A stretch of DNA of 57,282 bases, taken from assembly GCA_947588205.1 (NCBI GenBank), contig CANPYG010000005.1, forward strand, positions 1 to 57,282, in the 5' to 3' direction. Below are positions 47,651 to 57,282 of the stretch, piece by piece. Source of the stretch: an uncultured Acetatifactor sp. (GTDB lineage: Bacteria > Bacillota > Clostridia > Lachnospirales > Lachnospiraceae). Positions within the stretch are counted from its first letter, which is position 1; each line of letters opens with the position of its first letter. The notes beneath the pieces were generated by a model, which saw only the letters and a program-made list of their open reading frames with translations, was not told where the DNA came from and did not search any database. The position numbers were made by a program, and so were the translations under genes.

Positions 47651-47676
47651 ATCACCCGCTCTGCAGAGCGGGTGAT
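47651..47676. repeat. 26-bp palindrome overlapping attL
   Basis: ATCACCCGCT-CTGCAG-AGCGGGTGAT, perfectly self-complementary. Half of it is the tRNA-Gly 3' end remnant. In the uninterrupted chromosome the same sequence would follow the tRNA-Gly(TCC) acceptor end. Confidence 0.8.
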
Positions 47677-47686
47677 GGGAATCGAA
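47667..47686. other. attL
   Basis: AGCGGGTGATGGGAATCGAA, identical to the 3' end of tRNA-Gly(TCC) at 56941-56960; the sequences diverge immediately after. Confidence 0.88.
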
Positions 47687-47741
47687 TGTCGCTTCCACAA
47701 ATCCGCCTATTAAAAAGGAGGAAAGCACTTCATCCTCTCTC

Positions 47742-47763
47742 TCGTACCAATTTCGTACCGACT
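47742..47763. repeat. Two CGTACC repeats, 11-bp period, near attL
   Basis: TCGTACCAATT then TCGTACCGACT. A matching pair (GGCGTACCTAC twice) lies at 56855-56876 near attR, also with 11-bp period and same orientation. Candidate recombinase or excisionase arm sites. Confidence 0.6.
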
Positions 47764-47768
47764 TGCTA

Positions 47769-47797
47769 AGTGTAACTCATTATTTTTGAAATGTCAA
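47769..47797 (-). promoter_or_regulatory. Outward promoter at the left end of the element
   Basis: Minus strand: TTGACA, 17-bp spacer, TACACT. Reads out through attL toward tRNA-Gly(GCC), which lost its native upstream promoter when the element inserted. Confidence 0.6.
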
Positions 47798-47879
47798 TAC
47801 TAAATAATAAAAAGTTTTTGCCTTTACACGTCCTTCTTTTATAGTATAGAGAGATTTAAACGCCAAAATAAAAAATGCT

Positions 47880-47920
47880 AAAAGGTTCAGTGCTTAAACA
47901 AGACGAGCGCTGAACCTTTT
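47880..47920. terminator. Terminator after the tiny lipoprotein gene
   Basis: AAAAGGTTCAGTGCT pairs with AGCGCTGAACCTTTT (one G-U type change), with T/A runs on both sides. A second hairpin with the same GGTTCAGC arm sequence lies at 48143-48173. Confidence 0.75.
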
Positions 47921-48007
47921 TTATAAATACAGCCCTGGCGCACAACCAGTAAGCACCGTCGATAAGGAAAGCAAAACTGCAATCACTCTCTTCATCTTCG
48001 ATTTCAT
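47921..48007 (-). CDS. 28-residue lipoprotein (mostly signal peptide)
   Basis: ATG at 48007-48005 with AGGAGG 11 bases upstream. The product has a basic start (MKSKMKR), a hydrophobic core (VIAVLLSLSTV), the lipobox LTGC and only seven residues from the Cys onward (CAPGLYL). It is followed by its own terminator and preceded by an A/T-rich promoter-like stretch (TATGATACAAT). Too short for usual gene finders. It could be a lysis-type or entry-exclusion lipopeptide, or a source of a pheromone-like signal-peptide fragment; all three are inference. Confidence 0.68.
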   Translation of the reverse strand: MKSKMKRVIAVLLSLSTVLTGCAPGLYL

Positions 48008-48067
48008 AGTAAATCATCCTCCTTCTTAAAAATAAAACTATTGTATCATAACGCAAAAAATATATAA

Positions 48068-48229
48068 AGTTTAAAGCCCCACAGTCCGTCTCGCCAATAC
48101 GGACATGGGGCTCAAACAACTAGGAAACTAGCAACCGCAGAAAGGTTCAGCACCTGTTGGAAGTGCTGAACCTATATTCTGGACAAGCATTCAGTTGAAA
48201 GAATGCCCTCTTCTCCAGGAAGAGGGCAT
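48068..48229 (-). other. Cluster of strong hairpins between the two lipoprotein genes
   Basis: Three stems: AGCCCCA/TGGGGCT with inner GTCCGT/ACGGAC (48075-48112), AGGTTCAGCAC/GTGCTGAACCT (48143-48173), ATGCCCTCTTC/GAAGAGGGCAT (48203-48229). The last probably ends the CAP lipoprotein transcript. The others may be a terminator or a small structured RNA. Confidence 0.55.
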
Positions 48230-48237
48230 CAGATATC

Positions 48238-49698
48238 TTACCACTTGAATAATGTTACTGCATAGAACCACCCATCCTTAAAATATACCGCATAGACAGC
48301 CTGAGTAAAACTAGGATTGAACATAGCTTCCCTATGACCCTCCGAATTATACCACTGCGTATAAGTCGAATCCACCGTACCCTGTTGGTTCCTCGTGATA
48401 TTCTCCCCACACTCACTAGGCTCACCATCGTGACTATAATTCGAGGCAATCTCCACAGCTCTTCTCATAGCCACGTCCTCGTAATCACTCATCCACTCAA
48501 GAGGATTCAACCCAGCTGCTACCCTCTGCTCGTTCAGATAGTCTACAAAACTTCTATCAACCTTAGCACAATCCCAATCAGGAGCTGCAAGAGACTCAGC
48601 GACGTCCTTATCACGGACAGTGTAAAGAGCTCCATCCTCCCCAAGCACTGTAGTGTAATCGTCAGCCTGGGCTAACAGCCAGTCCCAAAAGTCCTCTTCA
48701 GAATCGCCACCAGTGTACTCTACCGAACCACCCTGGGAAGATGCATCCTGCTGGGGAGTACCCTGAGCAGGAGCAGTATTGCTGGCTACCTGAGTGACAG
48801 GCTTCTCAGTGCTAAGATAGTTGTTAGACACATACCCCGTTCCGCCTTCGCCATCAGTGATTCTGTACCAGCCAGTCTCATTGCACTTACCAGTTACCGT
48901 TACCGCTTCACCTTTGGAAAGTGATGCAATTTTACTTCCATCCGTTGACGGCATGTCTCTTACATTCACAGAATTGGATGCATAGTACTGGGCGTTGTCG
49001 ATGTCTGCGAAAGAGTAATCCTGCTTCATACCCAGAAGATATACAAGGGAGAACCTTCCCTCTTCATCGTAGTAAGAAGTCACCGCCCCACTGCCTTCAG
49101 ATACGCCCTTACCTTCTGGCTCAATGAGAATGGCATCTTTATTACCGTCAAAGCACCTCTGATAAAGGTTCTCATCAAACTCCGCCGGGGTTCTTGTTTT
49201 TGCCCAGATAGTGATGTAATCACTCTCGGGTTCTACACCGTCTTCCAATAAACCCTTCGCAAACTCCTTAGCCTGCTCCGCCATCTCGTCGCTCCACTCA
49301 AAGGTTCCTAACCCAGCCTCGGATCTCCTTGCGTTGATATAGTCGAAATACCCTTTCTCGTCGTAAGCCCCGACCTTAGCTTCCTCGGTCACCTCTTCGG
49401 TCTCCTCAGTGCCCTCGGCGTCCTCTTCAGGCTCCTCAACGCCCTCAGCGTCATCCGTTACCTCTTCGGTTTCCTCTACCGCCGCTCCGCTTCCGGTGAT
49501 CTCCTCAGTACTTTCTCCGGCATCTTTGCTTTCCTCTGTTTCGATTTCAGAGATATCATTCTCCCCGCTTTCAGAAACCGTTTCATTTTGGGGAATATTG
49601 CCGGGTTCATTGTTTGTGACCTCTGTCTGCCCACATCCTGTTAAGAGCATGGATGCCATTAACAAAGCAATGATTTTTTTCATTCTATTTTTTTTCAT
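48238..49698 (-). CDS. Lipoprotein with CAP-like, SH3b and CAP/SCP domains
   Basis: 486 aa, AAGGAGG upstream. Signal peptide with lipobox LLTGC (Cys22), an acidic Glu/Thr linker (~30-108), a degenerate CAP-like region (~110-230: YFDYINARRSEAGLGTFEW), an SH3b domain (~240-297: NVRDMPSTDGSKIASL, GWYRITDGEGGTGYV) and a CAP domain (~385-486: FVDYLNEQRVAAGLNPLEW, SHDGEPSECGENI, WYNSEGHREAMFNPSFTQAVYAV). Surface protein binding the wall by SH3b. Cargo of the element, at the end opposite the integrase. Confidence 0.85.
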   Translation of the reverse strand: MKKNRMKKIIALLMASMLLTGCGQTEVTNNEPGNIPQNETVSESGENDISEIETEESKDAGESTEEITGSGAAVEETEEVTDDAEGVEEPEEDAEGTEETEEVTEEAKVGAYDEKGYFDYINARRSEAGLGTFEWSDEMAEQAKEFAKGLLEDGVEPESDYITIWAKTRTPAEFDENLYQRCFDGNKDAILIEPEGKGVSEGSGAVTSYYDEEGRFSLVYLLGMKQDYSFADIDNAQYYASNSVNVRDMPSTDGSKIASLSKGEAVTVTGKCNETGWYRITDGEGGTGYVSNNYLSTEKPVTQVASNTAPAQGTPQQDASSQGGSVEYTGGDSEEDFWDWLLAQADDYTTVLGEDGALYTVRDKDVAESLAAPDWDCAKVDRSFVDYLNEQRVAAGLNPLEWMSDYEDVAMRRAVEIASNYSHDGEPSECGENITRNQQGTVDSTYTQWYNSEGHREAMFNPSFTQAVYAVYFKDGWFYAVTLFKW

Positions 49699-49733
49699 TT
49701 GATTACCTCCTTATTATTGCGTGATTTCTTTTT

Positions 49734-49773
49734 GATATCACTTTTAAGATATCTATAAGATATCACTTTGAAG
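49734..49773. promoter_or_regulatory. Repeated operator-like sites between CAP and Arc-like genes
   Basis: GATATCACTTTTAAG (49734-49748) and GATATCACTTTGAAG (49759-49773) are direct repeats 25 bp apart; between them is GATATC-TATAA-GATATC. They lie in the divergent promoter region and are natural targets for the adjacent ribbon-helix-helix protein. Confidence 0.55.
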
Positions 49774-49836
49774 TCAAATTTTCAAGAAAAAGTTATAATA
49801 AAATGACCAGTTTTGTATGGTATGGAGGTATGATGT

Positions 49837-49998
49837 ATGAATCCGAATTTCTCACTAAGAATTGATGATGAACTTTTAAAAAAACTTCGATACATTGCTG
49901 ATTATGATGATAGATCGCTTAATGGAGAAATTCAAAATATTTTAAAGCAATACATTGTAAAATTTGAGAAAGAACATGGGAAAATTAAGCTCGAATAA
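49837..49998 (+). CDS. Arc-like ribbon-helix-helix DNA-binding protein
   Basis: 53 aa, GGAGG nine bases upstream. NFSLRIDDELLKKLRYIADY is the RHH strand and first helix, and DRSLNGEIQNILKQYI the second helix. Such proteins dimerise and bind direct repeats. Divergent from the CAP lipoprotein; likely controls the element's cargo or transfer genes. Confidence 0.85.
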   Translation: MNPNFSLRIDDELLKKLRYIADYDDRSLNGEIQNILKQYIVKFEKEHGKIKLE

Positions 49999-50392
49999 TA
50001 TAAATCAGTAAACTTGCACAGAAAAGTAAATTTATAATTTCAAATTAATTCTTCTAACTTATCTAATAATTACGAAATCTATAAAATACCTTATATAAAA
50101 AGTAGAGATTTACCATTTCAATGCAGTTCTTATAAATTATCTGACATTTCCGAAATATTGTTTCAGGGGATATGCTACTATATCTACAAGTGCATACAAT
50201 TCTAAAACAAGTATATCAAATTTATCCTTCAGCATAAACAAAAGCAAGCTAAGATATAGGTAAAAAAAAATGTGTCGCGACCTGGCATTATTCTAGCAGG
50301 AGTTTTATAATTGATAATAACCGATAGGGTGATGCTTCTGCTAAATAAAAATATTTTATAGCAAAGATAAATTGTGTCTAACAAAAATAATT
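49999..50392. other. A/T-rich gap without a supported gene
   Basis: No open frame with a ribosome site. Contains GTGTCGCGACCTGGC and the tract ATTGATAATAACCGATAG, but no clear stem-loop with a T run. Confidence 0.4.
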
Positions 50393-50511
50393 AAATATCT
50401 AAGACATTACTGATATAGAAGTCCGTTTCTGGGGGGGAGTTCAGGTGAATTTACTGAGGTTCAATTAACAAGTATAATATGCTTACACTAAAAAGAGAAG
50501 AGGTGATACAT
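50393..50511 (+). repeat. Duplicated leader, copy 1
   Basis: Shares most of its ~119 bp with 51543-51661, including the invariant GAAGTCCGTTTCTGGGGG block and a promoter-like TTACTG-16-TATAAT (50451-50478). Each copy is followed by a gene starting M(K/R)(I/V)TG. Confidence 0.75.
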
Positions 50512-50592
50512 ATGAAAATAACAGGTAAAATTTATTTAACAACTAATATTTCAAGCAAGAATAAATTATATGTAACAAAAAAATTATACTAG
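50512..50592 (+). CDS. 26-codon truncated paralogue of the OB-like proteins
   Basis: Starts MKITGKIYLTTNISSKNK and ends KKLY. Aligns with the first ~28 residues of the 83-aa proteins at 51662 and 51983 and is preceded by a copy of their leader. Either a pseudogene or a leader peptide for the next gene. Confidence 0.5.
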   Translation: MKITGKIYLTTNISSKNKLYVTKKLY

Positions 50593-50608
50593 TAGTAGGA
50601 GGAAATTA

Positions 50609-51436
50609 ATGATGAAAGAAATGAATAGCATGCATCCCTCATATACGGATGAAGAAAACAAAATGGTATATGACTATATTGCAGGAGCTTCTGAAAAGGA
50701 ACTAGTGGCGATGGTTAATAAGCTCATAGAATTATATACCGAAGATGTTCCATCTATCAATGAAGTTTTTATGCAGTTCGAAAAAGAGTTGCGAGTGCGA
50801 GACGATTTATTTCAACAGAAAAAAGCTTTAAAAAAATGTATAGATGATTGGAACAAATATTATTCTGCGCTATTTCATAAAAGAAATGCCAACGTGGTTA
50901 GGAAAAAATATTTATACTTTAAAGAGAATGAATACCCAGCCATTAAGCAGAAGGATGATCTTGGTGTTTTTATGTCTTTTATTAGGGAATATGGAAGCAG
51001 TAACAATAAAGGACGAAATGTACCGGAAATGTATTATTGTGACCGTATAATTCGTTTATATATTTTAAATCCAGAAGCTAAAAACGCTTTTAAAGTACCA
51101 TCTAAGCCGAAGGTAATATATCATTCTTTACAGGATGTTCCAAAAAAAACGAAATGCAGAGAGGAGCTCTTTGAAAGTATTGGGAAAACTACTTTACAAT
51201 ATATAGTTACACATATGTTGTATAATCTTGGTTCTCCCGAAGCCCTTAAAATTCCTATAATAATTCGTTTTAAGATAAGAACATATGCTAATCAAAGTAA
51301 AAAAAAGAATGTCTCACCATTTACTACAAATATGCCTAGTATTTTTGAATTAATAGAGGAAAATCAAAAATTGTTTAAAAGAATCTGTGAAAAAGAAAAA
51401 GAATGTAACGAACTACTCTTAGAAATTGCAAGTTAA
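50609..51436 (+). CDS. Unknown protein of the element
   Basis: 275 aa, GGAGG seven bases upstream. Charged, largely helical, with coiled-coil-like ends (FEKELRVRDDLFQQKKALKK; LIEENQKLFKRICEKEKECN). No motif recognised. It lies between the truncated and full OB-like paralogues and has its own terminator (51443-51470). Possibly cargo inserted into the duplicated region. Confidence 0.75.
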   Translation: MMKEMNSMHPSYTDEENKMVYDYIAGASEKELVAMVNKLIELYTEDVPSINEVFMQFEKELRVRDDLFQQKKALKKCIDDWNKYYSALFHKRNANVVRKKYLYFKENEYPAIKQKDDLGVFMSFIREYGSSNNKGRNVPEMYYCDRIIRLYILNPEAKNAFKVPSKPKVIYHSLQDVPKKTKCREELFESIGKTTLQYIVTHMLYNLGSPEALKIPIIIRFKIRTYANQSKKKNVSPFTTNMPSIFELIEENQKLFKRICEKEKECNELLLEIAS

Positions 51437-51442
51437 AAAAAT

Positions 51443-51470
51443 AAAAAGCATCCGATATTGGGTGCTTTTT
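51443..51470 (+). terminator. Terminator
   Basis: AAAAAGCATCC/GGGTGCTTTTT stem with a GATATT loop, then ATTTT. Confidence 0.85.
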
Positions 51471-51542
51471 ATTTTACTTAAAAATTGCGAAAAAAACATG
51501 ACTATCGGAGATATTGCTATTCAAATTAATGCAGAATGTGTT

Positions 51543-51661
51543 AAATATCTTAGACATTACGGATATTGAAGTCCGTTTCTGGGGGAAAATTCAGAGCAAT
51601 TTACGAAAGCTCGATCAATGAGTAAAATAAGCTTACATTAAAAAGAAAGGAGGTGATTTAT
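51543..51661 (+). repeat. Duplicated leader, copy 2
   Basis: Same GAAGTCCGTTTCTGGGGG block as copy 1; promoter-like TTACGA-16-TAAAAT (51601-51628) at the same spacing; ends with AAAGGAGGTGAT. Confidence 0.75.
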
Positions 51662-51913
51662 ATGAGAGTAACAGGAGAAGCAATTTTTATGGCGGTCAGA
51701 AGCGGTACTTCAAAAGCCGGAAAACCGTTTTATACTGCAAAATTCCTCGATAAAGACGCAGATGAATTCTACACAATCTTTATCGATGAAGACATGTTCA
51801 ATGATCTTAAAGAGATGCAGAGGAGTACACCTGTTCTGTTAACCATTGACGAAGTTATTGGCAGTAAATATGTCTCTCTGGTCTCTGTAGAAGCGCTTTC
51901 AGTTGACCTGTAA
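51662..51913 (+). CDS. Small OB-fold/SSB-like (DUF961-like) protein, tandem copy 1
   Basis: 83 aa from MRVTGEAIFMAVRSGTSKAG with GGAGG upstream. The pattern (short strand, GTSKAGKPFYTAKFLD hairpin, FYTIFIDED, then TPVLLTIDEV and YVSLVSVEAL strands) resembles small OB-fold proteins such as the tandem DUF961 proteins of Tn916-type elements; similarity judged by eye. Followed by a hairpin (51932-51954) and copy 2, 321 bp downstream. Confidence 0.75.
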   Translation: MRVTGEAIFMAVRSGTSKAGKPFYTAKFLDKDADEFYTIFIDEDMFNDLKEMQRSTPVLLTIDEVIGSKYVSLVSVEALSVDL

Positions 51914-51931
51914 GAACAGGTCTAAAAAACA

Positions 51932-51954
51932 GGCGGGTAGTAATTCCACCCGCC
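51932..51954 (+). other. Hairpin after OB-like copy 1
   Basis: GGCGGGT/ACCCGCC stem, 9-nt loop. No T run, so attenuator or processing site rather than terminator. Repeated after copy 2. Confidence 0.6.
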
Positions 51955-51982
51955 AAACAAAAAAAGAGAGGAGGTGATTTAT

Positions 51983-52234
51983 ATGAGAGTAAAAGGCGAA
52001 TCAATTTTTATGGCGGTCAGAAGCGGTACTTCAAAAGCCGGAAAACCGTTTTATACTGCAAAATTCCTCGATAAAGACGCAGATGAATTCTACACAATCT
52101 TTATCGATGAAGACATGTATAATGATCTTAAGGAGATGCAGAGGAGTACACCTGTTCTGTTAACCATTGACGAAGTTATTGGCAGTAAATATATCTCATT
52201 GGTATCAGTAGAGGAAATTTCAGTAGATTTGTAA
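51983..52234 (+). CDS. Small OB-fold/SSB-like (DUF961-like) protein, tandem copy 2
   Basis: 83 aa, differing from copy 1 at about six residues. The first ~200 bp are nearly identical, while the last ~40 bp differ at many synonymous positions (SLVSVE coded differently), which suggests recent gene conversion of the 5' part. Same GGAGGTGATTTAT ribosome region. Confidence 0.75.
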   Translation: MRVKGESIFMAVRSGTSKAGKPFYTAKFLDKDADEFYTIFIDEDMYNDLKEMQRSTPVLLTIDEVIGSKYISLVSVEEISVDL

Positions 52235-52251
52235 ATACAAATCTACAATCT

Positions 52252-52274
52252 GGCGGGTGGTAATTCCGCCCGCC
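52252..52274 (+). other. Hairpin after OB-like copy 2
   Basis: GGCGGG/CCCGCC stem, equivalent to 51932-51954. Confidence 0.55.
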
Positions 52275-52309
52275 AAAGAAAATATATAAGGAAGGAGATA
52301 AATTTAATA

Positions 52310-52927
52310 ATGAATAATATTATTATTATTTTAATTTTTACAATCATTTTTTTAATAATTATAGTATTTGCAATAAAAATCATTAAAAATGTTTCCATAC
52401 AGGAAGCATTGAGGATTTTTGTCAAGTTCATGGTAGATGAAGCAAAAGACTTGATGAAAGAAACATCAAATGTGGCTTCTTATCCTGTTTGTATTGGTTG
52501 GGATGGATATCGAATCAATCCACGGATCGTAGAAGATGCCTTTTCAGCAATGATGAAAAATTTTGACGTTTGTTGTTACAGTGGGTCAGGTTACTATGAT
52601 AATGGAAACTTATATTGTTATAAGTTTAAAATCATGTACAAGCCCGAATCGGTCGACATGTCATATTTTGACAAACTGATACAGAAGCAAGCGGAGGAAG
52701 TGCTGGAAAAGTTTCTGCAGCAGCAGATGATCATCCTAAATACCGAAAGCATGACTTTTACAGATATCCGGCAGGATGGTTGGCTTATTGTTTACTATGC
52801 AGTAAACGAAGAAGGCATCAAAAGGCTTGATTCTTACAAACAGCATAAGAGGATGTTTCAAAGGAAAGCAGTTACGACTTCCCACTCTGAAATGAAAGAA
52901 AACTGGGATAAAAGCGACCCTCCCTAA
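52310..52927 (+). CDS. Membrane-anchored protein of the transfer/replication block
   Basis: 205 aa, AAGGAAGGAG upstream. A very hydrophobic Ile-rich N-terminal membrane helix (residues 2-25), then a soluble cytoplasmic domain with YPVCIGWDGYRINPRI and a helical C-terminal half (IQKQAEEVLEKFLQQQ). Not recognised. It precedes the FtsK-like gene by 13 bp, so a membrane docking role for the ATPase is a reasonable inference. Confidence 0.72.
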   Translation: MNNIIIILIFTIIFLIIIVFAIKIIKNVSIQEALRIFVKFMVDEAKDLMKETSNVASYPVCIGWDGYRINPRIVEDAFSAMMKNFDVCCYSGSGYYDNGNLYCYKFKIMYKPESVDMSYFDKLIQKQAEEVLEKFLQQQMIILNTESMTFTDIRQDGWLIVYYAVNEEGIKRLDSYKQHKRMFQRKAVTTSHSEMKENWDKSDPP

Positions 52928-52940
52928 AACCAAGAGGAAA

Positions 52941-53693
52941 ATGGTATTCGGTTATGAAATGGAAAAGTACAGAACCTATGCTGTTAAAGTACCCATACAG
53001 TTAAACTTATCGAGCCATTGCCATATGCTCCTGACTGGAGGGAGCGGTTCTGGAAAAACCATGGCGTTATTATTCCTATTGGGAAATCTGATTCGTGAAT
53101 ACCCTGAGATCGTGATTTATCTTTGTGACTTCAAACGGGGAGAAGAATTCTCTTTCCTCAAAGGTTATAAACATTATTACGGGGGAAACGACTGTTATAA
53201 AGGAATCATGGATTATTATGATCTCTTTTCCTCCATAAGAGAAAATGAGGAAGCATCATGGCAAAAAAAATATCTGCTTATCTGTGATGAATATCCCGCA
53301 CTGGTCAATTATCTGCAAATGAAGGATAAGAACAACAAAACCAAACTTGCTAATGATGTTTTAAATGCTGTTGCCGAAATCCTGATGGCAGGAAGAGGAT
53401 TAGGGGTCTATCTGTGGATTACCACCCAGAGGGCGGACAGCACACTTTTTGCCAATGGAGCCCGGGATAATTTCATGATTATATGTGCTCTGGGCAGATT
53501 GTCCAAGGAGCAAAAAAACATGCTTTTTTCAGGGCAGGATATTCCGGAGGGCGATGCTTATTATCCCGGCGAAGGTTTGTTGCTGGCAGACGGCCAGAAT
53601 GCCGTCTGTGTGAAATATCCTCTCATTGAAAATATGAAGGAGTGGGAAAGCAGGATTCTGGAAGCCTTGTCCAGGGGGCAGGATGCGGACTAG
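52941..53693 (+). CDS. FtsK/TcpA-like DNA-translocating or coupling ATPase
   Basis: 250 aa. Walker A GGSGSGKT (33-40), the FtsK-type IYLCDFKRGEEF following strand, Walker B YLLICDEYPAL (111-121) and WITTQRADSTLF motif near 158. No membrane helices and no gamma domain, so it is a minimal motor. In Tn916-type elements the FtsK-like Orf21 sits just upstream of oriT and the relaxase; the same order is seen here. GAGGAAAATG start region. Confidence 0.88.
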   Translation: MVFGYEMEKYRTYAVKVPIQLNLSSHCHMLLTGGSGSGKTMALLFLLGNLIREYPEIVIYLCDFKRGEEFSFLKGYKHYYGGNDCYKGIMDYYDLFSSIRENEEASWQKKYLLICDEYPALVNYLQMKDKNNKTKLANDVLNAVAEILMAGRGLGVYLWITTQRADSTLFANGARDNFMIICALGRLSKEQKNMLFSGQDIPEGDAYYPGEGLLLADGQNAVCVKYPLIENMKEWESRILEALSRGQDAD

Positions 53694-53919
53694 CTCCCCC
53701 GCCAGCTGCCCCGCTTGTCCGCGAGAGGACGCCGCAGGCGGACGGGAGCGGACAGGGGCAGGCGAGCGGAAGCGGGAGCGGACAAGGGCAGGTTGGCTGC
53801 CAGTGTTACCAGCCAACCTCTGTGACTGTGAAATCAATCCCGCAACCCGTATCTTTACGGCATTTTAATGGTCAAAAATGTCACAAACCAAAGTTTGACA
53901 GGCAAAGGAGGTGTGAAAA
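53694..53919 (+). other. GC-rich repeat and hairpin region: candidate oriT or replication origin
   Basis: Sharply GC-rich inside an A/T-rich element. Direct repeats GGGAGCGGACA(G/A)GGGCAGG occur twice (53740-53800), followed by a perfect 9-bp hairpin GGTTGGCTG/CAGCCAACC around the 10-nt loop CCAGTGTTAC. It lies directly before the HUH Rep gene, the usual place for the nick site of a rolling-circle or mobilization protein. Confidence 0.6.
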
Positions 53920-55038
53920 GTGGGATTTTCCCCTGATACAAAGGGAAGAGCGTTCATAGCAGTAGTTCAGGTTCAAAACATGAAGAAAATGGGTTTATCG
54001 GAAGAACAGTATGAAGACCCCGAATTCCTTGCAAATTATCTCTTGGACTTATGGAGTGGCAGCGGAAAAGACCGCACAGGCGCCGTTGCGGTATGCGAAA
54101 GCCAAGAAGGATTGTATCATGCCCATCTTGCTTTGTATGGAAATTCAACCACTTTAAAATGCGTTGCTGATGTTTTATTCCAAAGCCACGTTGAACCACA
54201 GCTTGGGGGCAAAGCAGCCTTATCGAACTATCTGTTAAAGCAGGGGAAATATGAGGAAAAAGGGGAAAAAGTCCTATATGTAAAAGGCATAGAGAATATA
54301 CAGGATGTCAGGGGGAAAAGAAGCGACATGGAAATCATCGAAGAAGAGTTGCTTCTCGGCAAAACTCCACAGCAGATATTAGATAAAAACTTTTCCTTTT
54401 ACAAGTATGAAAACTTAATAATGCACGCTTATATTGATCAGCGTATCCGTGATGCCCCTACTTTTCGGAAAGTTTATGTGGAAATCCATATCGGTGATAG
54501 CGGAACTGGCAAAACCTATGTTTATAATCAGTTGTGTACGGAATACGGTTCTGAAAACATTTACATATTAACTGACTATGACAACAACGCCAGCGGAGCA
54601 CTTGATTCCTATATGAAGATGGGAGCGCCGCCAATCCTGTTTATGGATGAATTCAGGGGCGTGAATTTCCCCTATTCCAAGTTACTGTCCATGCTCAGCG
54701 GTTATACCAGGATGCAGACCCATAGCAGATATTCCAATACTTACAATCTATGGGAAAAGGTGTACATTACATCTGTCTATCCGCCAGAAGTTTTATATGA
54801 AAACATGGTAAGGGAAGAAAACAGGAAAATAGATTCCATGTACCAAATGATGCGGAGGATTGATAAAATTGTATACCATTACATAAAAGACAAGGATTAC
54901 CGCACCTATACCATGGATGCAAAAGATTATTCAACTTTTGAGGACTTAAGAAATAAAGTCGATATCCTGTGTAAAGCAGAGGATGGATTTGTTGAAGTTA
55001 GCCGTTTTGGACAACAGAAACTTCCATTTGATGATTAA
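53920..55038 (+). CDS. Rep: HUH endonuclease plus superfamily 3 helicase (CRESS-like)
   Basis: 372 aa from a GTG with AAAGGAGG seven bases upstream. N-terminal HUH nuclease: motif I AFIAVVQVQN, motif II YHAHLALYG (His67, His69), motif III NYLLKQGKY (Tyr104, Lys107). C-terminal SF3 helicase: Walker A GDSGTGKT (192-199), Walker B PILFMDEFRG (Asp243-Glu244), motif C YITS (~283). This order is that of CRESS-DNA virus Reps and related bacterial plasmid Reps, unlike the helicase-less MobT relaxases of Tn916. Expected to nick one strand covalently and unwind for rolling-circle replication or transfer. Confidence 0.88.
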   Translation: MGFSPDTKGRAFIAVVQVQNMKKMGLSEEQYEDPEFLANYLLDLWSGSGKDRTGAVAVCESQEGLYHAHLALYGNSTTLKCVADVLFQSHVEPQLGGKAALSNYLLKQGKYEEKGEKVLYVKGIENIQDVRGKRSDMEIIEEELLLGKTPQQILDKNFSFYKYENLIMHAYIDQRIRDAPTFRKVYVEIHIGDSGTGKTYVYNQLCTEYGSENIYILTDYDNNASGALDSYMKMGAPPILFMDEFRGVNFPYSKLLSMLSGYTRMQTHSRYSNTYNLWEKVYITSVYPPEVLYENMVREENRKIDSMYQMMRRIDKIVYHYIKDKDYRTYTMDAKDYSTFEDLRNKVDILCKAEDGFVEVSRFGQQKLPFDD

Positions 55039-55056
55039 ACCTAAGGAGGATTTTTT

Positions 55057-55428
55057 ATGGAAAACAATAACAACGAAGATGATGAAATCACATTGGAAGG
55101 ACCAATAAAGCTTAAAAGGTGTTATGATTATGACAATTACTCTTCCTTCCGCATCAAAGAAATACTGAATGACCATTTCGGAATGCATCTGGAGCGGATA
55201 CGGGCTTACAAGGAAGGCAGATATCCCGGTTATAAGCAAAGGTACAATCTATGCCAAAATATAACCGGAAGAGTAATTCGAGAAAATGTTCACCTGGACG
55301 ATTTCCGCTACCTTTTTGCCAAAATGGAATTTCCATTGAAAGAAGAGAGAAACCTGAAAGCCGCAGAATTTCTTCGGATAGTAAATGAGATCGTGAAGGA
55401 ATACAAAAATACCAAGAAGGAGGAGTAA
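55057..55428 (+). CDS. Small acidic/helical protein downstream of Rep
   Basis: 123 aa, AAGGAGG upstream, 18 bp after rep. N-terminal acidic stretch (ENNNNEDDEITLEG), then basic helical segments (YSSFRIKEILNDHFGMHLER, YKEGRYPGYKQRYNL). Possibly a DNA-binding accessory of Rep or an excisionase-like factor, given its place before the repeats and integrase; not recognised. Confidence 0.7.
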   Translation: MENNNNEDDEITLEGPIKLKRCYDYDNYSSFRIKEILNDHFGMHLERIRAYKEGRYPGYKQRYNLCQNITGRVIRENVHLDDFRYLFAKMEFPLKEERNLKAAEFLRIVNEIVKEYKNTKKEE

Positions 55429-55463
55429 TGCGTCCGGGGTGCTGAAATTTGACCATTCAACTT

Positions 55464-55517
55464 CTAAATCACCTAAACCACCTAAATCACCTAAACCACC
55501 TAAATCACCTAATTCTC
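55464..55517. repeat. 9-bp tandem repeats before the integrase
   Basis: CTAAATCAC and CTAAACCAC alternate over five units, with a sixth degenerate unit (CTAATTCTC). Located about 60 bp before the integrase start. Candidate integrase arm-binding sites or iterons. Confidence 0.75.
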
Positions 55518-55576
55518 TCAGTCAGTTGATTTAACTCTCCATATTTTAGCATCAAAATCCCATGCATTTTAGGTCA

Positions 55577-56845
55577 ATGGAAATAAATGACATAATCTTA
55601 ACTGAATTATTGAAATCAGGTGCAATGGATGATACAATAAACTATGATGAAGTGCTGAGTATGTTAATGAAGAAAAATATTCAGCGTATTAAAAAAATAC
55701 ATCCTTACAAAATCTACCACACAGAAACCAGCGGATGGTTTACCATGGTTAACGATGCTTCGTGTCCTTCTGGTAAAAGGAAAATCCGGCGGTGCAGTGA
55801 AGAAAGACTGTGGGAGGCATTGCAGGAGCATTACAACAAGCACCTTGACAATATCAGGAAAGAAACTCTCAGGGATATTTATCAAAAATGGATTGTTTGG
55901 AAGGAAACGCCCACCAATGGCGACAATATCAAAAGGATACAGGCAGCTTGGAAGGCATACTATTTGAATGAGCCATTGAGCAGGGAATTTCTTGAAACAC
56001 CCTTAGCGAGTGTCACTTCCCTCATGCTGCGTGAATGGGCAGAATCGCTTTTGAAAAAGAATTATCCTGTGGACAAGAAAAAATTTTCCCGGATGTTTTC
56101 AATCGTCAATCAATGTTATGAATACGCTTCTGATGAAGACATTCATATTGTAAAGGAAAACCTCTGGCAAAAGGCACGGAAGAAGATCAATAAAGGCTTG
56201 ATCACGTCCACGCCTTGCCCGGCAGATGAGGAAGAGGTATTCACGGACGAAGAAAGGCGGAAGATAAAAAGCATGGTTCAGGAGGATTTGCTCCGCTACC
56301 GCAAACAGCCCACATGCGCAGGATTGCAGATTCTTTTCCTATTTGAAACCGGGCTGCGCATCGGGGAATGCTGCGGGCTTAAGTTCTCCGACATTCGCAA
56401 CAACCGCATATTTATCCGACGCCAGGCAAACAATGAAGGCGTCCGGGAATGGACAAAATCAACCGCCGGATATCGGGATATTCCCCTGACAGCAGAAGCA
56501 CAGAAGATTTTGGAACAAGTGAAGGAATATAATTCTGATCACGGTTTTACTGCTGAATGGGTGTTTCAAAGCAGCAATCCCAAGTATGATTACAGACTGA
56601 GCTACAATGCGGCTGACAGGAAACTCCGCAAACTATGCAGCAGAATGGATACGGTGAGAAAAAGTCCACACAAGTGCAGAAAGACGTGCATTTCTATATT
56701 GTTGGATTGCCCGGACATTAACAACCGTACTGTCCAGCGGTTTGCAGGGCATCAAGACCTTTCCACCACGTTTGCTTACTATTCCTTTGAGCGCAGAACA
56801 AAGGAGGAACAGGCGCTGGCTATAGGGAAAGCACTGGCTTTGTAG
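55577..56845 (+). CDS. Tyrosine recombinase (integrase)
   Basis: About 422 aa from MEINDIILTELL; an ATG at 55562 is an alternative and neither has a strong site. N-terminal arm/core-binding parts (~1-220), catalytic domain with Arg in FETGLRIGECCGL (266 counted from 55562), Lys near WTKSTAGYRDIP, HKCR (His370, Arg373), FAGHQDLSTT (His397) and nucleophile Tyr406 in TTFAYYSF. It reads toward the tRNA-Gly attR, 96 bp away, typical of tRNA-targeting elements. Confidence 0.93.
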   Translation: MEINDIILTELLKSGAMDDTINYDEVLSMLMKKNIQRIKKIHPYKIYHTETSGWFTMVNDASCPSGKRKIRRCSEERLWEALQEHYNKHLDNIRKETLRDIYQKWIVWKETPTNGDNIKRIQAAWKAYYLNEPLSREFLETPLASVTSLMLREWAESLLKKNYPVDKKKFSRMFSIVNQCYEYASDEDIHIVKENLWQKARKKINKGLITSTPCPADEEEVFTDEERRKIKSMVQEDLLRYRKQPTCAGLQILFLFETGLRIGECCGLKFSDIRNNRIFIRRQANNEGVREWTKSTAGYRDIPLTAEAQKILEQVKEYNSDHGFTAEWVFQSSNPKYDYRLSYNAADRKLRKLCSRMDTVRKSPHKCRKTCISILLDCPDINNRTVQRFAGHQDLSTTFAYYSFERRTKEEQALAIGKALAL

Positions 56846-56854
56846 ATTTAGCAA

Positions 56855-56876
56855 GGCGTACCTACGGCGTACCTAC
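56855..56876. repeat. Two 11-bp GGCGTACCTAC repeats near attR
   Basis: Perfect tandem pair directly after the integrase stop; counterpart of the CGTACC pair at 47742-47763. Confidence 0.7.
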
Positions 56877-56898
56877 GAGATGAGAGTAAAAAAAAATT

Positions 56899-56927
56899 AA
56901 GGAAACCGCTAAAAATGCGGCTTCCTT
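56899..56927 (+). terminator. Integrase terminator
   Basis: AAGGAAACCGC/GCGGCTTCCTT stem (one mismatch pair) with a short A-rich loop. Confidence 0.7.
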
Positions 56928-56940
56928 ATCAAAAATAAAA

Positions 56941-57011
56941 AGCGGGTGATGGGAATCGAACCCACGTGTCCAGCTTGGAAGGCTGGTGTTCTACCATTGA
57001 ACTACACCCGC
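56941..57011 (-). tRNA. tRNA-Gly (TCC), integration target (attR)
   Basis: Minus strand: acceptor GCGGGTG/CACCCGC, anticodon stem CCAGC/GCTGG around CTTCCAA (anticodon TCC), T arm GGGTTCGATTCCC. Its 3' 20 bp are the attachment core, restored by the element so the gene stays intact. Confidence 0.96.
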
Positions 57012-57015
57012 ACAG

Positions 57016-57088
<73 letters not shown>

Positions 57089-57142
57089 CTGTTGTACAAA
57101 TCCTGTCAAAGACTTCAACTCTGCTCTGCTCGCAACAATGGT

Positions 57143-57171
57143 ATATTACACGATACTATCGCAAAAGTCAA
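57143..57171 (-). promoter_or_regulatory. Promoter of the tRNA cluster
   Basis: Minus strand: TTGACT, 17-bp spacer, TAATAT, 55 bp before tRNA-Phe. Confidence 0.75.
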
Positions 57172-57182
57172 TAGCTTTTTTC

Positions 57183-57282
57183 AAAATTTCACTTAAAAAA
57201 TTCATGGGTGAAGTGAAAAGTTTATTTCCACTTTGAAGGGGGTAAAGTGGATTTTACTCTTTCACCCATTTCCACTTCACAA
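57183..57282. repeat. Repeat-rich end of window
   Basis: Contains ATGGGTGAAGTGAAAAGT and its near-inverse ACTCTTTCACCCAT plus repeated ATTTCCACTT blocks. No gene; cut by the window edge. Confidence 0.5.

Follow-up and report, generated by a model that had tools for sequence, protein, structure and literature searches.

The window analysed here is the whole of a 57,282-nucleotide stretch of contig CANPYG010000005.1, from an uncultured Acetatifactor sp. of the Lachnospiraceae, and it holds a 9.3-kb element at positions 47667-56960 that is inserted in the 3' end of a tRNA-Gly gene. In order, the element encodes two small proteins with an oligonucleotide/oligosaccharide-binding (OB) fold, a membrane protein and an FtsK-like ATPase, followed by a GC-rich hairpin region, a replication initiator (Rep) that joins an HUH endonuclease to a superfamily 3 (SF3) helicase, and a tyrosine integrase. 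This arrangement, including an integrase that targets tRNA-Gly, had been proposed in a preliminary description of the DNA, and it is borne out by 20-bp repeats at the ends, a PF00589 match and an empty site in a relative. The core features, several of which carry the marks of circular Rep-encoding single-stranded (CRESS) DNA replicons, are the following.

47667-47686, no strand: left attachment site, a 20-bp perfect direct repeat AGCGGGTGATGGGAATCGAA (repeat search; empty site in locus L082)
51653-51913, plus strand: small OB-fold protein 1, likely ATG start at 51662 (AlphaFold2 model; PDB matches to PrgE and single-strand-binding proteins, SSBs)
51974-52234, plus strand: small OB-fold protein 2, a tandem duplicate 93% identical to protein 1, likely ATG start at 51983
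52310-52927, plus strand: membrane protein, the proposed membrane half of a split TcpA (transmembrane residues 4-22 by hydropathy; slot conserved in relatives)
52941-53693, plus strand: FtsK/TcpA-type ATPase without a transmembrane segment, the putative ATPase half of a split TcpA (PF01580, E 1.5e-6, 28.3 bits against a cut-off of 24)
53743-53792, no strand: a pair of GC-rich 20-nt direct repeats on the 5' side of the origin hairpin (repeat family D7)
53790-53819, plus strand: CRESS/circovirus-type origin stem-loop AGGTTGGCTG[CCAGTGTTAC]CAGCCAACCT (folding and motif scans)
53801-53809, plus strand: nonanucleotide CAGTGTTAC, family consensus TAGTATTAC (motif scans), with the predicted nick at CAGTGTT/AC
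53820-53831, plus strand: tandem hexamer CTGTGA-CTGTGA, iteron-like, directly 3' of the stem (tandem-repeat test)
53920-55038, plus strand: CRESS-type Rep, HUH endonuclease and SF3 helicase, GTG start (homologues, motifs and fold)
55562-56845, plus strand: tyrosine integrase (PF00589, E 2.6e-21)
56941-56960, no strand: right attachment site, the second copy of AGCGGGTGATGGGAATCGAA (repeat and tRNA searches)

The right-hand copy of AGCGGGTGATGGGAATCGAA forms the 3' end of tRNA-Gly(tcc), which lies at 56941-57011. In a second genome of the same genus (G450, locus L082) the site is empty: sequence matching 47651-47686 of the window directly abuts sequence matching 56941-57203, with no insert, the latter comprising tRNA-Gly(tcc) and tRNA-Phe. 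Farther left in G450 the left-flank gene, which we take to be LytR/CpsA/Psr-like, and tRNA-Gly(gcc) also match, and a short unaligned stretch separates tRNA-Gly(gcc) from the repeat. The direct repeats and the empty site together demonstrate that insertion is site-specific. Across the ten ORFs (open reading frames) of the element that were scanned with the Pfam, NCBIfam and PHROGs profile libraries, we found no secretion gene, as had been noted before, and no conjugation or capsid gene.

The protein that occupies the relaxase slot had been described as a CRESS-type Rep. In the Pfam scan it gave no HUH or viral-Rep match at E <= 1, neither PF02407 nor PF01719+PF00910, and no match to PF02486 (Rep_trans, MobT); nor was an HUH family named by Pfam, NCBIfam, PHROGs or a phmmer search of the PDB. 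Since sequence profiles alone gave no family, the assignment was made through homologues, motifs and fold. The closest plasmid match is RepA of p4M (tblastn, 2e-9), and the protein also matches replication proteins of gut inoviruses (best 2e-12). In an alignment of 11 Rep sequences the HxH motif (H67, H69), YxxK (Y104, K107), Walker A (G192, G195, G197, K198) and Walker B (D243, E244) are invariant; when the alignment was widened to p4M and distant relatives, H67, Y104, K107, the Walker A residues and E244 remained so, and H69 nearly so. Motif III reads YLLK in the window and YCSK in p4M, with no YLxH signature. An AlphaFold2 (AF2) model reached a predicted local distance difference test (pLDDT) score of 84.3 and a predicted template modelling (pTM) score of 0.56. 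Structure prediction had been suggested as a check of the 53920-55038 protein, and Foldseek placed the model closest to viral Reps: a vientovirus Rep (3.2e-10), the ATPase of porcine circovirus 2 (PCV2) Rep (4.5e-6), PCV2 Rep (5.5e-5) and the PCV2 endonuclease domain (3.5e-3), with Rep68 of adeno-associated virus (AAV) also matched and general AAA+ ATPases ranking below or among the viral Reps. Whole-chain TM-scores of the model are low, so that the mutual placement of its domains is unreliable. Taken together, motifs, model and Foldseek matches place an HUH endonuclease and an SF3 helicase in one Rep, in agreement with the preliminary description.

The region between the ATPase and Rep genes (53680-53935) folds better than 199 of 200 shuffled sequences (z -3.34), and its most regular part is the element's stem-loop, with a 10-bp palindromic stem and the loop CCAGTGTTAC. 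The consensus nonanucleotide of CRESS replicons is NANTATTAC; CAGTGTTAC departs from it at one base and fits the broader pattern NANTRTTAC. Among the 14 NANTRTTAC sites in the 57-kb window only one lies in a stem of more than 3 bp, namely the origin hairpin. By analogy with circoviruses, the nick would fall at CAGTGTT/AC. The hairpin is a CRESS-type replication origin and not an oriT of the Tn916 type, which was the place that the preliminary description had given it; the same finding strengthens that description's proposal of CRESS-like chemistry. Replication from this hairpin is well supported.

To follow the hairpin across relatives, we searched upstream of 50 Rep ORFs, those of the window and of 49 fetched loci, which left 45 distinct Rep loci (window included) once five duplicates at >=95% had been removed. 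The hairpin was counted where NANTRTTAC stood in a stem of 7 bp or more without mismatch between -600 and +120 of the Rep start. Eight further loci were kept outside the 45: six with weak or short matches (L033, L035, L036, L037, L041 and L043, 6 of the 27 places found in the order's genomes), and two without a counted Rep ORF (L089, in which Rep is split over two frames, and L106). By this criterion 32 of the 45 loci carry the hairpin, always on the Rep-sense strand; in 100 dinucleotide-shuffled sets the number per 45 averaged 0.03 and never exceeded 1. When no stem was required, exact TAGTATTAC occurred on the Rep-sense strand in 27 of the 45 loci, all of them in stems of 7-14 bp, compared with a single site in a 2-bp stem on the opposite strand. 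Whole-locus scans found the hairpin in four of the eight extra loci (L033, L035, L037 and L089). The stems themselves vary, with 24 distinct 8-bp sequences among 28, and pairing is retained; in a subset of 14 of the 32, chosen for a 10-nt loop and an uninterrupted stem of 8 bp or more, changes on both sides were seen at 7 of the 8 pairs, the full pairing being there by construction because the hairpins were selected for it. The same kind of motif is found in p4M, where TAGTGTTAC sits in an 8-bp stem upstream of the annotated Rep start, and in four inovirus records with TAGTATTAC stem-loops (L009, L010, L114 and L115). One Staphylococcus epidermidis and one Lactobacillus plantarum plasmid with weakly related Reps had no such hairpin.

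Terminators, too, occur at positions between two co-directional genes such as this one, and the hairpin might be a mere terminator or RNA element of the operon whose TATTAC-like loop is coincidental. We consider this exceedingly improbable: the loop is conserved in 27-32 of the 45 loci although the stems differ, no T-run follows the hairpin in the window, the shuffled sets all but lack the motif, and it recurs in p4M and the inoviruses.

Repeats on the 3' side of the stem are a further property of many loci of the family. Of the 32 loci, 19 have a tandem 5-7-mer in the first 24 nt beyond the 3' end of the stem, its sequence differing between elements; the 200 shuffled sets gave a mean of 3.04 and a maximum of 10, and the 5' side gave 4 of 32. 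This test was devised after the sequences had been seen and is post hoc. A simple count of pentamers over 130 nt gave a weak signal, with 124 copies for 88 expected over the 32 loci and p 0.18 for the window. Variants were also observed among the relatives. The Zot-bearing loci L015 and L048 (duplicates L095 and L097) have another loop, TAATGATTCC, which caps a 10-bp stem upstream of Rep and may serve as a different origin motif. About 800 nt, seemingly with an extra small-protein gene, separate hairpin and Rep in L054, so that the hairpin stays beside FtsK. At L089 (1849-2955), a close relative (61%), the split Rep retains a hairpin with the loop CCAGTATTAC.

The ATPase upstream of the origin had been likened to Orf21 of Tn916. 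It shares 28.7% identity over 237 aa (E 1.5e-17) with the Orf21-type protein of a Tn916-like element in genome G057, and a profile of the split ATPases scored 99.7% against that protein, which upholds the comparison. By hydropathy the window ATPase has no transmembrane (TM) segment, and together with the preceding membrane protein it amounts to 455 aa, compared with 458 aa for Orf21. Two forms of the ATPase occur in relatives: a stand-alone protein (236-295 aa as called) and a fusion with a TM domain (411-469 aa; L053, L059, L060 and L098). Among the separate membrane proteins, only those of L050, L052, L090 and L092 could be aligned with the fused proteins of L059 and L098, matching their N-terminal half (97.7%; E 1.4e-12 one-to-one). 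At the level of sequence, these alignments show a split TcpA in the sister elements, and the window element probably carries one too. A first comparison of the membrane proteins with TcpA N-termini, using a mixed profile, gave no match.

The two small genes are tandem 288-nt units that are 92% identical. Their AF2 model has the strand order b-b-b-a-b-b at a pLDDT of 89.3, and its closest PDB structures are PrgE of plasmid pCF10 and OB folds of the SSB/PriB type (E 4.5e-3 and weaker, none at 1e-3). The proteins had been called OB- or DUF961-like. The first half of that label stands, and DUF961 was ruled out by the lack of a Pfam match and an hhalign probability of 0.1 against the DUF961 protein of the Tn916-like element. 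Small proteins of similar size fill this slot in most of the FtsK loci compared; only those of L012 showed a sequence link to the window's proteins among the groups compared.

We then looked at how the module is distributed. Rep homologues are present in 8 of 61 genomes and in 20 of 392 genomes of the order, two overlapping sets that both include the host; one scan of viral contigs found no relative and another found one partial relative. The same gene order recurs in other genomes, as the preliminary description had suggested looking for: FtsK lies within 3 kb in 19 of the 45 Rep loci, 16 of which also have a downstream integrase. Zot accompanies Rep in seven loci (four by Pfam, two by record annotation, and L048 by likeness to L015), and neither FtsK nor Zot was recognized in another 19, six of them with an integrase and some near contig ends. 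A tRNA gene (Lys, Gly, Ser or Cys) lies within 200 nt of the integrase in 7 of the 14 loci scanned for tRNAs. At L045 (4755-11635) two elements stand in tandem beside tRNA-Gly, the first FtsK-Rep-Int and the second Rep-Int, and their Reps differ. In a midpoint-rooted FastTree of 44 of the 45 Reps (one short Rep was left out), FtsK and Zot contexts are interleaved by inspection, so the module of Rep and origin seems to have passed between filamentous phages and TcpA elements whose gut hosts are related.

That interleaving raises the question of whether the element is itself a prophage or satellite of filamentous, inovirus-like phages, with an ATPase that serves virion extrusion. Rep relatives with the same origin do adjoin Zot in the four inovirus records, and Pfam Zot accompanies a related Rep at genome loci L015, L017, L046 and L057, with the hairpin in L046 and L057. 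The window ATPase itself, however, matches TcpA (E 1.5e-17) and not Zot, for which there was no Pfam match at E <= 1 and a best blastp E of 0.10; a coat-like gene was not recognized by PHROGs or Pfam in the ten scanned ORFs. We rejected the phage reading for the window and regard it as very unlikely.

In our judgement the element is probably of the kind formed by p4M-like pCRESS plasmids and TcpA-bearing integrative and mobilizable elements (IMEs), with a circovirus-like origin, able to replicate and to be mobilized. The integrase would excise it from the tRNA-Gly gene as a circle, a step suggested by the observed attachment sites and the relative's empty site. Rep would then bind the tandem CTGTGA repeats and open the 10-bp palindrome, and Y104 would nick the exposed loop, most likely at CAGTGTT/AC. 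Judging from its fold and catalytic residues and from the origin architecture, Rep is expected to unwind the circle with its SF3 helicase and to drive rolling-circle replication. For transfer, the complex of Rep and single-stranded DNA would be passed to the FtsK/TcpA ATPase and its membrane partner and reach a recipient by way of the mating channel that a co-resident conjugative element provides, while the OB proteins, judging from their fold, may coat the single strand. One circovirus-like origin would in this way act as both ori and oriT. More tentatively, and with somewhat less confidence than we place in the element's kind, we propose that a family of mobilizable elements of gut bacteria replicates and also starts conjugative transfer from a circovirus-type origin consisting of palindrome, TAGTATTAC loop and 3' hexamers.

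Several observations weigh against this interpretation. Excision, nicking and transfer are steps that we infer for the element. The nonanucleotide CAGTGTTAC departs at two places from the family consensus TAGTATTAC, and its G for A at loop position 5 also breaks the PCV pattern AxTAxTAC. The motif-I Thr is replaced by Val15 in the window Rep and is Thr in the sisters L013 and L044. Thirteen of the 45 Rep loci lack the hairpin by our criterion (L014, L015, L048, L016, L017, L054, L056, L060, L061, L088, L090, L092 and L105; a TTAATATTAC hairpin lies farther upstream in L054, and L105 is truncated at the end of its contig), and it was not found by whole-locus scans in four of the eight extra loci (L036, L041, L043 and L106). 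Profile comparison detected no homology between the window membrane protein and the N-terminal half of TcpA, and Zot is weakly linked by profile to the split ATPases as a group (56%, E 1.1e-4). Finally, the host genome (93% complete) yielded neither TpcC, the marker of FA-type conjugation, nor a coupling protein of PF02534, and its VirB4 is of a type other than FA.

That VirB4 is of the CD1110 type (998 bits; L111, on the small contig G000:C132) and is a sign of another conjugative element in the host. As it stands without TpcC or PF02534, a helper conjugative element in the host is possible only. DUF961 was not found in the host genome. Two weak PF12846 matches in the host were set aside as candidates, one to what we read from its ORF as a chromosomal FtsK (L110) and the other to the VirB4 at L111.

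Conjugative mobilization of the element is the more conditional part of our interpretation, and it is here that an integrated plasmid has to be weighed, one that merely replicates and integrates and uses the FtsK-like pair for partition, dimer resolution or anchoring. The extrachromosomal p4M has the same order of small protein, membrane protein, FtsK and Rep and is typed as non-mobilizable by MOB-suite, and the 19 Rep loci in whose surroundings no FtsK or Zot was recognized, some of which lie near a contig end, suggest that the Rep/origin module may work without the ATPase. The FtsK of p4M is presumably among the plasmid proteins counted as TcpA. Against such a plasmid speak the homology of the window ATPase to the Tn916-type coupling protein and the listing of FtsK proteins of several small plasmids as TcpA (PMC5357655). 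The hairpin's place in the oriT slot does not decide the matter, because the hairpin belongs to Rep. On balance we think a plasmid that only replicates and integrates unlikely, though it is the alternative that we take most seriously.

A decayed, immobile remnant, which would be compatible with the other readings of descent, seems improbable to us. The two departures of the nonanucleotide from the family consensus, the Val in motif I and a truncated OB copy at 50391-50525 would fit such decay, but the core reading frames are uninterrupted and have good ribosome-binding sites, the attachment repeats are perfect, and a G at the same loop position is found in p4M (TAGTGTTAC) and in a smacovirus (PMC6723397).

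The remaining features of the element lie mainly to the left of the OB genes.

48238-49698, minus strand: lipoprotein cargo with SH3 and CAP domains (PF00188, 1.5e-17; PF08239, 1.1e-12)
49837-49998, plus strand: Arc-type ribbon-helix-helix regulator (PF03869, 3.9e-6)
50391-50525, plus strand: degenerate copy (81%) of the OB-gene leader with the first codons of a truncated OB gene (repeat family D3)
50609-51436, plus strand: 275-aa protein between the two leader copies (weak best matches: Pfam E 0.018, PHROGs 0.068)
55057-55428, plus strand: 123-aa protein between Rep and integrase (relatives in L051 and L089)

The lipoprotein, on the opposite strand, also has a long acidic linker. The 275-aa ORF had no match in NCBIfam at 0.001 and none in PADLOC at 0.1, and it is flanked by duplicated copies (81%) of the OB-gene leader and first codons at 50391-50525 and 51541-51675; from the sequence, the gene seems to have inserted between two copies of the leader, so that a third OB copy was left truncated. 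The 123-aa protein is possibly an excision factor or regulator, and between its gene and the integrase there is a tandem 9-bp repeat, CTAAATCAC/CTAAACCAC, at 55464-55517.

CRESS viruses are thought, from Rep evidence, to descend from bacterial plasmids (PMC6668415), and finding the origin shared as well, at the corresponding position, would support this link independently. If our interpretation is correct, conjugation in these elements would be initiated by the nick chemistry of animal and plant CRESS viruses; origin and Rep would be common to bacterial elements, filamentous phages and eukaryotic viruses, and one sequence would join relaxase-type transfer to viral rolling-circle replication. 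The analysis also provides a precise predicted nick site for bacterial elements with an unstudied mode of transfer.

Elements that combine a CRESS-type Rep with TcpA and a tyrosine integrase have been described before (PMC5357655, PMC6668415). Streptococcal IMEs of classes 4 and 7 (Coluzzi 2017, PMC5357655; reviewed in Guedon 2017, PMC5704250) carry rolling-circle-replication-type relaxases (PF02407, or PF01719+PF00910), TcpA and a tyrosine integrase, and resemble the window element in site-specific insertion, in the placing of TcpA/FtsK upstream of a Rep-type relaxase and in the absence of secretion genes. In contrast to those IMEs, the window Rep is not matched by their Pfam models, its TcpA appears to be split, its family resides in gut Lachnospiraceae, and its origin is identified. 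The plasmids pCRESS1-9 are described as mostly site-specifically integrated, and YLxH in motif III marks pCRESS4-8 (Kazlauskas 2019, PMC6668415). Likeness to p4M of Bifidobacterium pseudocatenulatum and to pCRESS1-3 extends to a homologous Rep (2e-9) without YLxH and, for p4M, to the gene order and the TAGTGTTAC stem-loop before Rep. Unlike the window element, p4M is extrachromosomal, and none of the five genes listed for it encodes an integrase. A weak likeness to DUF961 (E 0.0036, which falls short of the Pfam cut-off; hhalign 21%) sets its small protein apart from those of the window.

Tn916 runs from small proteins through a coupling ATPase and a hairpin origin to an HUH initiator. Tn916 and ICEBs1 share the window's order and a homologous ATPase; the window differs in having a CRESS Rep for MobT and a CRESS-type origin for the CT'AA oriT, with no DUF961 and no conjugation genes in its scanned ORFs. 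In ICEBs1 and ICESt3 the oriT is nicked in a loop at CT'AA (PMC9371924). Gut inoviruses (bajarodino viruses 2, 30, 56 and 74) have a related Rep and a TAGTATTAC stem-loop origin, and in them a Zot morphogenesis ATPase and phage genes replace TcpA and the integrase block. With the CRESS-DNA viruses (Cressdnaviricota) the element shares Rep and a nonanucleotide stem-loop; it lacks the motif-I Thr, and its ten scanned ORFs include no recognized capsid gene. In PCV2 the stem is a 10-nt palindrome, the loop AxTAxTAC is nicked between T and A, hexamers downstream of the stem bind Rep, and rep lies downstream of the origin (PMC2690592); TAGTATTAC itself occurs in a cyclovirus-like genome and TAGTGTTAC in a smacovirus (PMC6723397). 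The main text of PMC6668415 contains neither 'nonanucleotide' nor 'stem-loop', and among the matches listed from the open-licence literature, supplements aside, there was no report of a circovirus-type origin in bacterial integrative elements, which is not proof of absence. What we have not found in print is the identity of the hairpin as a circovirus-type origin, with its 10-bp palindrome, CCAGTGTTAC loop and 3' tandem hexamer. The window shares with PCV2 the 10-nt palindromic stem, the downstream hexamers and the position of rep; the family consensus TAGTATTAC fits AxTAxTAC, the window loop is off by one base, and, unlike PCV2, it belongs to an integrated element of a bacterium with no recognized capsid gene.

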